This document shows, piece by piece, positions 3,854 through 19,304 of a DNA stretch of 64,000 nt. Each line of letters opens with the position of its first letter. Positions within the stretch are counted from its first letter, which is position 1. Below the pieces are notes generated by a model that saw only the letters and a list, made by a program, of their open reading frames with translations, did not search any database and was not told where the DNA came from. The position numbers and the translations under genes were made by a program. Source of the DNA: a virus; IMG/VR virus record IMGVR_UViG_3300032236_000601, positions 1 through 64,000 of that record; one strand, written 5' to 3'.

Positions 3854-3869
3854 TGACTTCTCCTTTACG

Positions 3870-3941
3870 CTGATCTGGGAGGACTCGAACCTCCAACCTA
3901 GCGATTAACAGTCGCTCACTCTGCCATTGAGTTACAGATCA
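3870..3941 (-). tRNA. tRNA-Asn (GTT)
   Basis: A full cloverleaf folds on the minus strand: acceptor TGATCTG/CAGATCA, D-stem ACTC/GAGT, anticodon stem AGCGA/TCGCT with loop CTGTTAA (anticodon GTT), T-stem GGAGG/CCTCC with loop TTCGAGT. The discriminator base is G and no CCA is encoded. A -10 box places the transcript start about four bases before the 5' end. Confidence 0.95.
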
Positions 3942-3951
3942 CTATGCGTAA

Positions 3952-3990
3952 ATTATATCCTATGCCTTACTGTTTATGCAAGGCATAGGA
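3952..3990 (-). promoter_or_regulatory. Hairpin fused to a promoter for tRNA-Asn
   Basis: A perfect 11-bp inverted repeat (3958-3968 with 3980-3990; arm TCCTATGCCTT) follows the stop of the 130-aa secreted protein gene. It is immediately followed by TATAAT (3957-3952). A TTGCAT in the hairpin loop is 18 bases from this -10. The element can act as terminator of the upstream gene and promoter of the tRNA. There is no U-tract, so termination would be atypical. Confidence 0.6.
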
Positions 3991-3998
3991 CACAATCA

Positions 3999-4391
3999 TT
4001 ATGGATTAAGTGTTACACGAACTGTACTGAATTGACCAGTAAATATATTGGTAGTTATGGTGGTGGCATTTGTTGCTACTGGTCCAGTATAAGTTGCCGC
4101 AACAACATCATTTAAAATAAACTCTACCTGTGTAGTTTTACATGAAGAATCTATTCCGCTAACAGTTATGCTGGTAACTTTTACTCCATTAGAACTAGTA
4201 TTTCCATATGTATATGCAGTTGTTACGCCATTAGTGTCGCAACTTGTTGCAGTCACCTGTCCCAATGCGGGAAACATTGGTGCTACAACATTCATAGCAT
4301 CAATCGCATATGCCGTTCCTAAACTTGCAAAAACTCCAACAGATAGCACTGCTCCTGTTATTAATAAAACTGTTTTCTTATTCTTTTTCAT
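3999..4391 (-). CDS. Secreted protein with signal peptide, 130 aa
   Basis: The N-terminus is basic (MKKNKK), then hydrophobic (TVLLITGAVLSVGVFASLG), with a plausible signal peptidase site near TAYA. The remaining ~100 residues are Thr/Val/Asn-rich and beta-type, with two cysteines (TSCDTNG, SSCKTT) that could form a disulphide. It resembles a small Ig-like extracellular domain, but I cannot assign a family. It lies in a row of three secreted or membrane genes (5294-3999). Exposure on the infected cell surface is inferred. Confidence 0.6.
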   Translation of the reverse strand: MKKNKKTVLLITGAVLSVGVFASLGTAYAIDAMNVVAPMFPALGQVTATSCDTNGVTTAYTYGNTSSNGVKVTSITVSGIDSSCKTTQVEFILNDVVAATYTGPVATNATTITTNIFTGQFSTVRVTLNP

Positions 4392-4421
4392 TTTATTTTC
4401 CTATTCTATATAGTTTATTTG

Positions 4422-4523
4422 TTAACGATTGCCAAATGCCCATGCTATTAATAAAAATAATGCTATACAAACTATCTCTACAGCAAAAAATATTGCAAGA
4501 CCACTAAAGAAATCTTTTTTCAT
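4422..4523 (-). CDS. Single-span small membrane protein, 33 aa
   Basis: This mini-gene starts with ATG at 4523 behind a GAGG ribosome site. After MKKDFFSG it is almost wholly hydrophobic (LAIFFAVEIVCIALFLLIAW) and ends GNR. One transmembrane helix with a single internal Glu is predicted. It lies between two genes for exported proteins and is probably co-transcribed with them. A role as holin, pinholin or envelope modulator is possible but unproven. Confidence 0.55.
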   Translation of the reverse strand: MKKDFFSGLAIFFAVEIVCIALFLLIAWAFGNR

Positions 4524-4589
4524 TTTAAAAACCTCATTTATATTTTAGGTAATGGCTGCTCAAGGTGACCTGAGCAGCCATCCCCCTAA

Positions 4590-5294
4590 CTAGTTGCCAT
4601 ACATTGGGATGGTACGAGTGCAAACATACCCACCTGTATAGCCATTAGGCCAATATGACCACGATGCTCCCCATCCTGTTGGACAGGTTTGATTAAAGTT
4701 TCTTCCATATTGCTGTAGCCAATCAGGTGACCCTGCTGGTACTGGTGCAATTGGTGGAACTGGTGGTTTTGGTGGCTTTGGATGACAATGCCTAAAACTA
4801 TCTCCCATAAAGAAAGAGAAGTTTCCTCCATCAGTCATGTAACACTCGTGATGCTGCCCCTGGTTTCCGTTGCCATCATTATCTTGGTTATTGTTATCTC
4901 CATTGTTTTGATTGCCTCCGTTACCGCCCTGGCCTCCGCCTCCGTTGTTACCGCCGTTACCATTTCCGTTATTTCCTTGACCTCCACCATTTCCTTGACC
5001 TCCATTGCCACTGTTTCCACCGTTGCCGTTGCCATTACCGTTATTTCCATTTCCGTTTCCATTGTTTCCGTTTCCATTACCGTTATTGCCACCGCCCTGG
5101 TTTCCGTTTCCTTGGCCCTGATTTCCCTGACCTTGATGACCATTGCTGTTTCCGCTATTACCATTGCCGTTGCTACCATTGTTCTGATTATTTCCCCCAT
5201 TATTGTTTCCATTGCCAGGGGCCGCAGAAGCAATTGGTGCATAAATCATGCCTGCTGCTACTAAAATTCCTGCTGTTGCTAAAACTCTTTTCAT
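4590..5294 (-). CDS. Secreted Asn/Gly-repeat protein with Cys C-terminal domain, 234 aa
   Basis: Residues 1-24 form a clear signal peptide (MKRVLATAGILVAAGMIYAP then an A-S-A cleavage site). Residues about 26-150 are almost pure Asn/Gly with some Gln and Ser, in imperfect GNGN/NGNG repeats. A proline-rich hinge (KPPKPPVPPIAPVP) then leads to a compact aromatic C-terminal domain. That end has four cysteines, two in HHEC and RHCH and two in NQTC and YVCTR. It starts behind a GAGGAG ribosome site. Such an extended, flexible secreted protein is unusual for a phage. It could coat the infected cell or modify the wall surface; this is inference. Confidence 0.7.
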   Translation of the reverse strand: MKRVLATAGILVAAGMIYAPIASAAPGNGNNNGGNNQNNGSNGNGNSGNSNGHQGQGNQGQGNGNQGGGNNGNGNGNNGNGNGNNGNGNGNGGNSGNGGQGNGGGQGNNGNGNGGNNGGGGQGGNGGNQNNGDNNNQDNDGNGNQGQHHECYMTDGGNFSFFMGDSFRHCHPKPPKPPVPPIAPVPAGSPDWLQQYGRNFNQTCPTGWGASWSYWPNGYTGGYVCTRTIPMYGN

Positions 5295-5319
5295 ATTTAA
5301 AATCTCCTCGTTTTTAATG

Positions 5320-5350
5320 GATACTATTACTAGTTCCTAGTTTCAGTATC
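5320..5350. repeat. 31-bp palindrome upstream of the Asn/Gly-repeat gene
   Basis: Two nested inverted repeats share one centre at 5335: GATACT/AGTATC outside and ACTAG/CTAGT inside. They lie 26-56 bases upstream of the ATG at 5294, where a promoter or 5' leader is expected. This suits a repressor operator or a leader hairpin. Confidence 0.5.
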
Positions 5351-5433
5351 TACCTATTAGACGAAAAACATTACTGATAAGAGCAGTCATGATTGGTCAG
5401 ACAAAATAATTGACCATTAACACAAAATAAAAA

Positions 5434-5460
5434 AACACACTGCTATAATGCAAGTGTGTT
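5434..5460. promoter_or_regulatory. Plus-strand leaderless promoter inside a terminator-like hairpin
   Basis: On the plus strand TGCTATAAT (5441-5449) is followed by six bases and GTG at 5456. The -10 lies in the loop of a 7-bp inverted repeat (5434-5440 with 5454-5460). Read on the minus strand, the hairpin is followed by seven T residues, so it looks like an intrinsic terminator for antisense transcription arriving from the right. One element may therefore start the plus-strand gene and stop minus-strand read-through. Confidence 0.65.
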
Positions 5461-5791
5461 TAATAGTATTATGAAAAAAGTAAGTTTATTGTTTCAAGAA
5501 GGCCCAACTTGGTCTGTTAGAAGAACCTTTGTTTTTCTCGCTGGAACATTTTGTGTTGCAATTATCTTATATGTGGTTGTTAGATGGAATGATATTTCAT
5601 TTGCATCCCCGCTAGTAATTGGAGCATTTGGAGTGTTAGGGACAGTGGTAACCGCATATGTTGGCGGTACAGTTTATAAAGAACATGGAGAAAAAAAAGA
5701 AGAAACTTCACAAGCATTAGATGTTCTAAATGCTAATGAAGTCAGGCAAGCAAGACAAATGAAACACGATGAAGACTTTCCAACATTATAG
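5456..5791 (+). CDS. Two-span membrane protein, 111 aa; only plus-strand gene
   Basis: Two hydrophobic segments (about 25-42 and 52-71) are followed by a charged cytoplasmic-type tail (YKEHGEKKEE onwards). The topology and size resemble small phage membrane proteins, including some holin-like ones, but no family motif is seen. I keep the GTG start at 5456 because it coincides with the predicted +1 of the promoter. ATG at 5471 would lose only five residues but has no ribosome site. The gene is convergent with the HNH/tRNA-Thr unit and divergent from the secreted-protein genes. Confidence 0.65.
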   Translation: MFNSIMKKVSLLFQEGPTWSVRRTFVFLAGTFCVAIILYVVVRWNDISFASPLVIGAFGVLGTVVTAYVGGTVYKEHGEKKEETSQALDVLNANEVRQARQMKHDEDFPTL

Positions 5792-5824: not shown

Positions 5825-5896
5825 AGCCACTAGAAGGTACTGCCCCCTCTTATCCTGTTTACAAGACAGGCGCATTACTGTTTATGCTATAGCGGC
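5825..5896 (-). tRNA. tRNA-Thr (TGT)-like, non-canonical D and T loops
   Basis: The minus strand folds into a cloverleaf: acceptor GCCGCTA/TAGTGGC (one G-T pair), D-stem GCAT/ATGC, anticodon stem CCTGT/ACAGG with loop CTTGTAA (anticodon TGT), and a 5-bp T-stem GAGGG/CCTTC with one G-T pair. The T-loop is GGCAGTA rather than TTCRANY, and the D-loop AAACAGTA lacks the G18-G19 pair. Both partners of the usual elbow contact are thus missing. It may be a divergent functional tRNA or a decaying one. Its first 15 bases are the last codons and stop of the HNH gene. Confidence 0.55.
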
Positions 5897-6283
5897 GTTG
5901 GTGCGCTTATGAGTTCTTTCTCTATGACAATTAGAACATACAACTTCACACTTTTCAATTTCTTTTAATATATCCTCTATTGAATGCCAATATACCATTT
6001 GACCAATATTTTCAACCTTGAATCCATTAACATGATCAAAATCTAAAACATAGTATGGATACATTATTTTACAGTCAACGCACCCAGAGTCTTCTTTTAT
6101 TTTGGCAATCATCAATCTTATCTCTGTTCTTCTTTTTTGAGATCTTTCCCCTGTTTTTCTCTTTTGATCATCTCCTAAATGATATGAAATTGTTCCTTTG
6201 GAGCAACCTAAATATTCTTGTATTTCTCTATAAGTTTTTCCCTCTGACCTTAGACGAATAATTTCTTCTCTATATTTAGTCAT
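5882..6283 (-). CDS. HNH endonuclease with N-terminal helix-turn-helix, 133 aa
   Basis: Residues 1-35 contain a resolvase-like HTH (KTYREIQEYLGCSKGTISYH). The C-terminal half has an HNH/zinc core: C-V-D-C, VLDFDHVNG, then EVVCSNCHRERTH. This is the layout of small phage HNH nucleases that bind a site and nick DNA, often as homing enzymes. Its promoter is a perfect 25-bp palindrome, so autoregulation through the HTH is plausible. Translation is predicted to be leaderless from ATG 6283. The gene ends inside the tRNA-Thr-like gene. Confidence 0.8.
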   Translation of the reverse strand: MTKYREEIIRLRSEGKTYREIQEYLGCSKGTISYHLGDDQKRKTGERSQKRRTEIRLMIAKIKEDSGCVDCKIMYPYYVLDFDHVNGFKVENIGQMVYWHSIEDILKEIEKCEVVCSNCHRERTHKRTNAAIA

Positions 6284-7439: not shown

Positions 7440-8270
7440 CTATATATTTGTTATCGCTATTAGCGACGGATTATTGTAGTGATAAGCATACCAAAAGCAA
7501 CGATCTATGTCAAGCATATTGCATATTGTATTGGTTTCACTCATTAATTTAATTTGATCTGGAATGGCATATGGGTTTCCCTTACCGCCTAAATTATAAT
7601 TTGTTTCTGTAATCCACAATGGCTTTTTAGGAGCCTTTGCTAAAGCGTTAATTGCAATCTTACAATCTCTTGTAAATCCTTCAACCCCCTCGCTTTGCTG
7701 TGGATATATATGCATTGCATAAACGTCACAGGGATATCCTGCGCTCTTTAATGAAGAAAGTAGTGCTGCACCCTTAGTATCAAAGCCAGCCTGTCTGCGT
7801 GGCTGCAATGGATAGGAAACCACCTTTGCAGCAGGGTCTATTCTTTTAATAATTTGATATGCTGTCTTTGTTATTGTACCCATCGTTGCATAATCTCCAG
7901 AGTAAAATCTTTTATCTGCTGGCTCATTCCATACTTGATAATACTGAATTCTACCTTTATATCTAGTAACTACAGCCTGAACATATGTGCTCCACATACC
8001 CATATTTGCTGGTGGCCTATTGCTACCCGCTGGCATCCATGCTGCCTGCTTTCCATCTGGACCGCCAAGTGCTGCCCATGCTGGTGGATGACCAATAACT
8101 AAACAAATGCTTCTTTTTCCTGCTGCTGCTACAAATGAATCTAGTGTAGACCAATCAAAAGTTCCACGTTCTTTTTCTATTCTTGCCCACTCTGTTTGAC
8201 AATCCCATAACCTAATCGGTCCAGTAGGCGGCATATCCTGTATTACATTGCTGCCGAATATCGTTGGCAT
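7440..8270 (-). CDS. Glycoside hydrolase-like (TIM barrel) protein, 276 aa
   Basis: This looks like a clan GH-A glycosidase. YYQVWNEPADKRF (E116 in N-E-P) is the acid/base motif and PLWITETNYNLGG (E222) the nucleophile motif, with WDCQTEW and the LVIGHPPAW strand before them, as in GH39- or GH5-like enzymes. No signal peptide is seen. It could cleave host cell-wall or capsule glycans as part of lysis or as a virion-associated depolymerase; its place near the endolysin and a membrane protein favours an envelope target. The substrate is unknown. Confidence 0.72.
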   Translation of the reverse strand: MPTIFGSNVIQDMPPTGPIRLWDCQTEWARIEKERGTFDWSTLDSFVAAAGKRSICLVIGHPPAWAALGGPDGKQAAWMPAGSNRPPANMGMWSTYVQAVVTRYKGRIQYYQVWNEPADKRFYSGDYATMGTITKTAYQIIKRIDPAAKVVSYPLQPRRQAGFDTKGAALLSSLKSAGYPCDVYAMHIYPQQSEGVEGFTRDCKIAINALAKAPKKPLWITETNYNLGGKGNPYAIPDQIKLMSETNTICNMLDIDRCFWYAYHYNNPSLIAITNI

Positions 8271-8277
8271 GACGAAT

Positions 8278-8283
8278 ATTATA
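8278..8283 (-). promoter_or_regulatory. -10 promoter for the glycosidase-like gene
   Basis: On the minus strand TGTATAAT lies seven bases before ATG 8270, giving a one-base leader. The TAA within TATAAT is also the stop codon of the DUF1003 gene. Confidence 0.5.
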
Positions 8284-8764
8284 CATCAAAAGTTAGATCG
8301 TTTATTGTTTTTTCAAACTCTTTTTCATGCATTTCTATTTCATCATTCTTTTTTTTAATATCAAGTTCTAATGAGTGTCTTTCTATTTCATCATTCTTTT
8401 CTTTGATCTCAAATTCAAGATGATCATGCAGAACTTTTTGCATTCTATGAATTTCTTTAATTAAAGGAAAGAACTCTTGAGTCATTATAAGATCTTCTCT
8501 ACCAACCTTGTAAGTATTTTCTGCTAATTCTGTTGCAAGAGCATCTGCACGTTTTGCAGCAATCAAAAGAATTGCTCCTTGCAGTGCAGCAAGACAAGAT
8601 AACAAAAGATTTAAAAGAATGAACGGAAAGGGATCAATTCCCCCTGGTCCTTTAAAAATTATCCATATAATTAAAAACCCTACAGCACTAAATACAAAGG
8701 GCCAAGAACCCATTCCGTTGCGAATTATATCTGCAAATCTGTTTCCTAAACTCATTCTCCCCAT
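8279..8764 (-). CDS. DUF1003 membrane protein with coiled-coil tail, 161 aa
   Basis: The N-terminal half matches DUF1003: RFADIIRNGMGSW, a first membrane helix, GGIDPFPFILLNLLLSCLAA leading into a second helix, then AAKRAD. The C-terminal half is a long charged coiled coil with a partial internal repeat (EIKEKNDEIERHSLELDIKK, then KNDEIEMHEKE). The family is widespread but functionally uncharacterised. In this setting a holin or other lysis-linked role is possible. The leaderless ATG at 8764 follows TGTTATAAT. Confidence 0.75.
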   Translation of the reverse strand: MGRMSLGNRFADIIRNGMGSWPFVFSAVGFLIIWIIFKGPGGIDPFPFILLNLLLSCLAALQGAILLIAAKRADALATELAENTYKVGREDLIMTQEFFPLIKEIHRMQKVLHDHLEFEIKEKNDEIERHSLELDIKKKNDEIEMHEKEFEKTINDLTFDV

Positions 8765-18764: not shown

Positions 18765-19304
18765 TTACTTACAATTGCTTGGAAACTTCTTGTACCAAGA
18801 CTTGAATTTAAAATAAATGGACTTTGGTGTATAGCCACCTTCATATTGTCCACGACCACCAATATCCCACGGATAAAAGGTTCGACCATGTTGCGAAATG
18901 CTATAGGCAATCATGATGTTATATTTGCTGGTCAGCAACTTTTGTGTATTCCACCAGGGTTGGCTTGACCATGCTGCGCGGTTGAATTGAAATACTCCAT
19001 AGTCTCCAGTAGAAGAGATATGTGTTGCGGCTCCTCCACTTTCACGCATAGCAATTGACCATGCAATCTTCAATCCTCTACCCTTAAAACCAGCGGCCTT
19101 TAATTCTTTGACCAAATGGTTCTTACAGATAGTTGTTGGCTTTGCTAAAGCCTTATCATTTACGACAGGCTTTGCTAGAGCCTCCGTCGCAATAGGTGCA
19201 TTTGACTTAGCATACACCTGTTCGTTGGTAGCAGCAACTGCACTTGATCCTGAGATCATCATTAGTACAGCCACAATACCTCCTACCAGTTTCGTTTTCG
19301 TCAT
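18765..19304 (-). CDS. Secreted lytic transglycosylase-like protein, 179 aa
   Basis: Residues 1-25 form a signal peptide (MTKTKLVGGIVAVLMMISGS then SAVAA). The mature protein has a repeated ALAKP linker, then an SLT-like core: WSIAMRESGG (E88 the expected catalytic acid) and STGDYGVFQFNRAAW. C60 and C178 could form a disulphide. It would cut peptidoglycan outside the membrane without a holin, as an export-type lysin, for wall remodelling or for superinfection control. It has its own promoter and an AAGGAGG ribosome site. Confidence 0.8.
   Translation of the reverse strand: MTKTKLVGGIVAVLMMISGSSAVAATNEQVYAKSNAPIATEALAKPVVNDKALAKPTTICKNHLVKELKAAGFKGRGLKIAWSIAMRESGGAATHISSTGDYGVFQFNRAAWSSQPWWNTQKLLTSKYNIMIAYSISQHGRTFYPWDIGGRGQYEGGYTPKSIYFKFKSWYKKFPSNCK

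Follow-up and report, generated by a model that had tools for sequence, protein, structure and literature searches.

The gene block at positions 3999–5791 of this viral DNA raises the question of whether its four adjacent genes form one functional cassette acting on the host envelope, for example by surface masking or superinfection exclusion, as had been proposed in a sequence-only reading, or whether its members have to be explained separately. The window, i.e., the whole stretch of 64,000 nucleotides analysed here, comprises positions 1–64000 of a 67,785-base virus record (67.8 kb), the source of which is an uncultured phage of aquatic actinobacteria (actinophage). The terminase of the record is ~54% identical to Streptomyces phage terminases, and the first 12 kb, when compared with known phages by megablast, showed similarity to the tRNA-Asn only. 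Since close IMG/VR relatives (identity up to 91%) extend to about 100 kb, the record is probably a fragment. Searches of the 67.8-kb record detected neither an integrase nor a large serine recombinase.

Gene Content of the Block

The four open reading frames (ORFs) of the sequence-only reading were confirmed at their positions. On the minus strand lie SP3999 (3999..4391), coding for a predicted 130-aa exported protein with a signal peptide and a six-stranded Ig-like sandwich, as based on homologues, a structural model and a tree; TM4422 (4422..4523), a 33-aa single-span membrane peptide recognised by its ORF and hydropathy; and AG4590 (4590..5294), a predicted 234-aa exported protein identified from its signal peptide, composition and C-terminal domain. 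The plus-strand gene TM5456 (5471..5791) encodes a two-span holin-family protein (phrog_14936, hhalign) of 106 aa when translated from the ATG at 5471, which aligns with the start of its homologue; an alternative GTG start at 5456 (5456–5791) would yield 111 aa. Hydropathy agreed with the proposed topologies, revealing signal-peptide-like N-termini for the products of SP3999 and AG4590, one membrane span in TM4422 and two in the plus-strand product read from 5471. A good ribosome-binding site (Shine–Dalgarno, SD) is present upstream of all three minus-strand genes, and none was seen before the plus-strand gene. A tblastn search with the 33-aa peptide gave no match in 82 loci. Judged from the dN/dS ratio of SP3999 and from homologues of the AG4590 C-terminal domain and of the plus-strand gene, the four ORFs are regarded as real and not as chance occurrences.

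All homology-supported genes except TM5456 are on the minus strand; the remaining plus-strand ORFs of at least 60 aa are few and short and have no homology support, so that TM5456 keeps its place as the sole plus-strand gene. The block is adjoined by a minus-strand gene for an HNH endonuclease-like protein with an HTH motif (5882..6283; PHROGs 3106/2255). Elsewhere in the window, a GH10-like protein (7440–8270; PF00331, E 1.5e-9) that is kept in several relatives, a DUF1003 membrane protein (8279–8764; E 1.2e-16) with no relative among the fetched loci and, adjoining the terminase, a secreted lysozyme-like protein (18765–19304) retained by several relatives were observed.

Borders, Hairpins and Transcription Units

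The view that tRNA-like genes bound the block proved correct. Its left border is a minus-strand tRNA-Asn(GTT) at 3869..3941, detected with ARAGORN, and its right border a divergent tRNA-Thr(TGT) at 5825..5896, likewise on the minus strand, which was missed by ARAGORN and was found with Rfam model RF00005 (46.7 bits vs. a cut-off of 29). The tRNA-Thr and the end of the HNH gene share 15 nt. The D-loop and T-loop of this tRNA are atypical, and it is perhaps degenerate or highly unusual.

Folding of the minus-strand transcript revealed a hairpin from an inverted repeat directly 3' of the SP3999 stop codon (3952..3996; −29.1 kcal/mol, z −8.0), which suggests the 3' end of the SP3999 transcript or a terminator ahead of the tRNA-Asn, closing a 4422–3999 unit, and another directly 3' of the AG4590 stop codon (4541..4592; −29.5 kcal/mol, z −5.1), which is likely the 3' end of the AG4590 unit. 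Both were absent from the sequence-only reading and are stronger than the two palindromes that it had listed. Of the latter, the imperfect palindrome in the AG4590 leader (5320..5350, minus strand) is weak on the transcribed strand (z −1.7), and the one at 5434–5460 fared better: it forms a minus-strand hairpin with a U-run (5432..5461; −12.5 kcal/mol, z −2.5), suggesting an intrinsic terminator for minus-strand transcripts coming from the HNH/tRNA side, and it holds a putative extended −10 element for the plus-strand gene, TGCTATAAT (5441..5449, plus strand), which is a perfect match by local sequence. The sigma-70 scan demands a −35 box, and TGCTATAAT is absent from its list; as the general sigma-70/terminator scan performed at chance level, the promoter and terminator readings refer to local sequence and folding. 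Taken this way, the block suggests three units: AG4590 alone and TM4422 together with SP3999 on the minus strand, and TM5456 on the plus strand.

A 16-nt direct repeat (15/16 match) brackets the block, with one copy in the loop of the 3952–3996 hairpin (3964..3979) and the other in the D-arm of the tRNA-Thr (5872..5887). Only 0.04% of random flank pairs of this genome equal a repeat of this quality, but it was spotted post hoc and was not seen in relatives. It is suggestive of a recombination or insertion scar.

The Plus-Strand Gene Belongs to a Holin Family

The product of TM5456 shows hydropathy (KD) peaks at residues 19–37 and 42–60 and a charged C-terminus, and it matches phrog_14936 with an E value of 5.5e-10. 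A homologue with 42% identity was found in one of 22 relative records, namely, in the 101.7-kb phage behind L008 (L096), where it follows tail-type genes, overlaps an r1t holin gene (PF16945, E 5.4e-20) and shares its strand with the other genes. The L096 homologue also matches Stenotrophomonas and Pseudomonas phage proteins annotated as holins, whose genes immediately precede those for endolysin and spanin; the holin label of these proteins was likely assigned by context and not by experiment. When the profile of TM5456 and its relative was compared with two annotated holins using hhalign, probabilities of 97.7% and 97.1% were obtained. Tblastn searches of annotated phages with SP3999, the plus-strand gene and the AG4590 tail gave no match, and the link of TM5456 to holins thus came via L096.

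In the window, an M15 endolysin-like gene lies 3.8 kb from TM5456 on the opposite strand. A search of the record itself for an r1t holin gave no match; the control likewise matched nowhere, hence this search was uninformative. From its homologues, TM5456 is classified as a holin-family gene, belonging to lysis by family and with a predicted permeabilising function. With the relatives of the plus-strand gene being in the tail-end/lysis region, the proposal that all four genes make up one functional cassette was not upheld.

SP3999 Encodes an Ig-like Protein of Host Origin

The AlphaFold model of SP3999 revealed a six-stranded sandwich of high confidence (residues 55–130 mostly >90). A Foldseek search gave no significant match (best E 0.21), and VIA-align returned generic Ig/FN3-like sandwiches only, with Z values up to 7.1, so the modelled structure indicates a fold class and no function. 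The protein has no anchor.

Five or more other phage records contain homologues, with identities of 66% (L001/L002), 54% (L088), 48% (L015) and 43% (L090/L091), and these adjoin tRNA-Asn in L001, L002 and L088. Further homologues are encoded on chromosomal-looking contigs with cellular neighbours from two 'Ca. Nanopelagicales' metagenome-assembled genomes (MAGs) and one Actinomycetales MAG; these host copies share 45–50% identity, the same architecture and the conserved C51/C84 with SP3999. In hosts, the homologue is rare, being present in 4 of 166 genomes of the order, with one of these matches marginal. In the tree, the L015 copy nests with the MAG sequences (support 98/99), which means that phages received the family at least twice. 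Based on homology and tree topology, we classify the SP3999 family as host-derived and as acquired by phages on at least two occasions. Comparison of the closest phage copies, L001 and L002, gave a dN of 0.055 and a dS of 0.445; with a dN/dS of about 0.12, the phage SP3999 copies are under purifying selection.

On the host contig L093/G023:C25, an SP3999 homologue and a protein with the AG4590-type tail are encoded 2.6 kb apart. This co-location was dropped as evidence, its chance occurrence being ~2.5% by our own estimate at six copies per genome.

The C-Terminal Domain of AG4590

AG4590 is composed of a signal peptide, a 123-aa Gly/Asn/Gln-rich stretch of low complexity, in which 81% of the residues are Gly or Asn, a Pro-rich spacer and a C-terminal domain of ~45 aa (4590..4742, minus strand). 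Alignment of host and phage copies defined the domain as W-x-Q-x2-G-R...C...S-W-x2-W...G-G-x-V-C, with invariant W, Q, GR, C, SW, W, GG, V and C. Neither Pfam nor NCBIfam contained a match to it, and a literature search returned no paper on it. A model of the 45-aa tail, calculated from three sequences, is of moderate confidence (mean pLDDT 77). Pfam/NCBIfam matches to RHS_repeat, DUF92, DUF998, SLATT and midcut-by-XrtH were under the cut-off and were taken as chance.

A single-sequence search detected the domain in 39 of 166 genomes of the order of G023, which holds the 'Ca. Nanopelagicales' MAG JAFMHB01, at up to 22 copies each. In a profile search covering 296 genomes of the class, almost all matches fell within that order, where a genome has as many as 24 copies; outside it, only two genomes gave matches, which were marginal (E 3–4e-4). 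Given this near order-specificity, the host of the phage is probably a member of the order of G023. Of the approximately 20 host proteins that were read, most have an N-terminal signal peptide, then one of several unrelated middles (beta-propellers, a C-type lectin domain and Gly-rich stretches among them) and, at or close to the C-terminus, the domain. Paralogous secreted families of 11–24 copies with the common 45-aa tail were seen in G053, G054, G055, G108 and other host genomes.

In phages, the same domain (68% identity) was found at L119:4278–5135 in a protein that consists of a signal peptide, an Ice_binding domain (E 1.5e-25) and a PT-repeat stalk ahead of it. This protein belongs to a 105.8-kb relative phage that also has the L088 copy of SP3999 and is the only other phage in which an AG4590-type tail protein and SP3999 occur together, at a distance of about 6 kb.

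Because one tail behind exchangeable middles fits surface attachment, the position and copy number of the domain lead us to infer a role in attachment to the cell surface; it could alternatively mediate protein–protein or carbohydrate binding or lead to release. An LPXTG-like C-terminus is absent from AG4590 and SP3999, and sortase anchoring cannot be claimed here, since no sortase was found in the 67.8-kb record, which may be incomplete.

A Variable tRNA Island in Related Phages

In L015, L088, L001 and L002, the SP3999 gene is located near the DUF7455 gene in the corresponding tRNA-rich stretch, with differing neighbours. Other secreted genes fill the island in relatives, i.e., those for DUF732, a transglycosylase-like protein and a stalk-sortase: the island of L015 carries a stalk-sortase (PF04203, E 2.9e-20), that of L054 a secreted DUF732 protein, and in L001/L002 the neighbour of SP3999 is a lysozyme-like secreted protein. 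The four genes of the window occur together in no relative examined; members of the block are scattered and swapped, and the conservation of the block expected from the cassette proposal was, to this extent, contradicted. The island is best read, from gene content, as a variable hot spot for exported host-derived genes and not as a fixed module.

The stalk-sortase genes were found in two forms. In L015, the protein is encoded by a single in-frame ORF of 413 aa. At L120:2693–3707 (the L002 phage), L001:9262–10096 and L126:5902–7055, the ORF for a secreted KICHATAS/PT-repeat stalk terminates within a sortase ORF in the −1 frame that lacks a good start, and canonical slippery heptamers in the right frame are present at the end of the stalk ORF (T TTA AAA in two relatives, T TTT TTA in the third). 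Programmed −1 frameshifting likely produces the stalk-sortase fusion in these three relatives.

Possible Function of the Exported Proteins

As the explanation of the locus, we favour, with reasonable likelihood, an island of changing content that holds surface-protein genes taken from hosts and lies next to a displaced holin gene. An aquatic actinophage lineage would gather host genes for exported proteins in its tRNA-rich island; AG4590 and SP3999 would be made during the lytic infection, exported through the host Sec system and place material of host type at or close to the cell surface. AG4590 would probably be held in the envelope by its C-terminal domain, exposing the disordered Gly/Asn stalk, and SP3999 would contribute a small Ig-like domain. 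TM5456 would stand outside this surface role as a holin-family gene that has moved out of a lysis region and is transcribed from a promoter of its own. The envelope part of the sequence-only reading is retained in this form and without the plus-strand protein, as an envelope role is likeliest for a host-like exported pair that lies between tRNAs and for which relatives have secreted genes in the same island.

Redecoration of the infected cell by the exported proteins may follow from these features; the benefit to the phage is speculative. The most natural candidate is altered adsorption, by which competing or sister phages would be blocked (superinfection exclusion) or progeny would be kept from sticking to the altered cell. 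No homology to known exclusion proteins was detected in Pfam, PHROGs or NCBIfam. As no integrase was found, the phage is unlikely to profit from the proteins in lysogeny, and the short lytic cycle, leaving a surface change less time to act, counts against the favoured explanation.

The main rival is that the exported proteins serve release, either by acting with the holin-family protein to weaken or cross the envelope or by stopping debris from trapping progeny. The SP3999 homologue of L090/L091 indeed lies directly after a small transmembrane protein and before a small, holin-looking one, SP3999 adjoins the lysozyme-like secreted protein in L001/L002, and the M15 endolysin and other envelope genes are within 6 kb in the window. 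We nevertheless consider a release function unlikely: neither protein has an enzymatic domain, the host relatives are not known lysins, and four other phages have SP3999 among tRNAs or beside the sortase, far from holin genes. A dedicated four-gene module for superinfection exclusion or surface masking, combining a membrane pair with receptor-covering secreted proteins, is very unlikely, with the holin family of the two-span protein residing in tail-end/lysis regions, the plus-strand gene having its own promoter on the other strand and no relative retaining all four genes together; the adjacency of the genes between tRNA genes, the host-like secreted proteins and the presence of two membrane proteins would be in its favour.

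Purifying selection on the phage SP3999 copies, the repeated acquisition of SP3999 and its persistence in five or more further phage records, together with intact signals and SD sequences, argue against the block being neutral cargo, that is, host genes that recombination brought into a tRNA-rich hot spot with an HNH gene and that are functionless for the phage. This is considered quite improbable, even though the 16-nt direct repeat around the block with one copy in a tRNA, the adjoining HNH gene and the gene content varying between relatives would be accounted for. Tail proteins often contain Gly-rich and Ig-like domains, which would speak for AG4590 and SP3999 being virion or tail-associated proteins that aid adsorption. 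Both have clear signal peptides, which are unexpected for virion proteins assembled in the cytoplasm, and their genes are far from the tail genes (29–68 kb in the record), making this reading highly improbable.

For the favoured island of surface-protein genes, a wider and rather doubtful generalisation is that largely lytic aquatic actinophages systematically capture host secreted genes in a tRNA island and rebuild the surface of the infected cell in the lytic cycle via a host-specific C-terminal envelope domain, with the displayed module (Gly/Asn stalk, ice-binding-like, Ig-like) being exchanged and relatives using their own −1-frameshift stalk-sortase.

Significance and Comparison with Known Systems

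Host-derived exported cargo in phages is of an already known kind. Within the libraries searched, the new element would be that aquatic actinophages use an undescribed C-terminal domain, which is nearly order-specific and is combined with exchangeable stalks. Aquatic actinobacteria, 'Ca. Nanopelagicales' being one example, rank among the most common bacteria of fresh water, and few phages that infect them have been cultured (PMC10202952). As a nearly order-specific marker, the domain would offer a direct clue for host assignment of uncultured phages, and it points to an undescribed route of protein display that these bacteria may use; if phages indeed use it to redecorate cells in lytic infection, this would be a step in the arms race.

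The block resembles phage morons and cargo of the lysogenic-conversion type in comprising small extra units with their own signals, host origin and exported products. It differs from them in its position in a tRNA island, in a host-order-specific C-terminal domain that is not in Pfam or NCBIfam and in its probable expression in the lytic cycle, as no integrase was found in the record. The holins of Bradleyvirinae (the 'putative holin' of Stenotrophomonas phage AXL_1 and the holin of Pseudomonas phage ZQG1; phrog_14936) have two transmembrane spans as in TM5456 and share with it the core S/TW..RR..F..FC...YV..R...A......G.....G (hhalign 97–98%), whereas TM5456 is on the strand opposite to all other genes, distant from the endolysin and equipped with a longer charged tail. 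The host secreted proteins with the W-Q-GR-C-SW-W-GG-VC domain have the same layout as AG4590, with a variable middle (including Gly-rich ones) and a domain 35–57% identical, and the 123-aa Gly/Asn/Gln-rich stretch is absent from those read here. The ice-binding-like (DUF3494, PF11999) protein of L119 shares with AG4590 the signal peptide, a low-complexity stalk and the same domain; in place of the bare low-complexity stretch of AG4590, it carries a folded DUF3494 domain.
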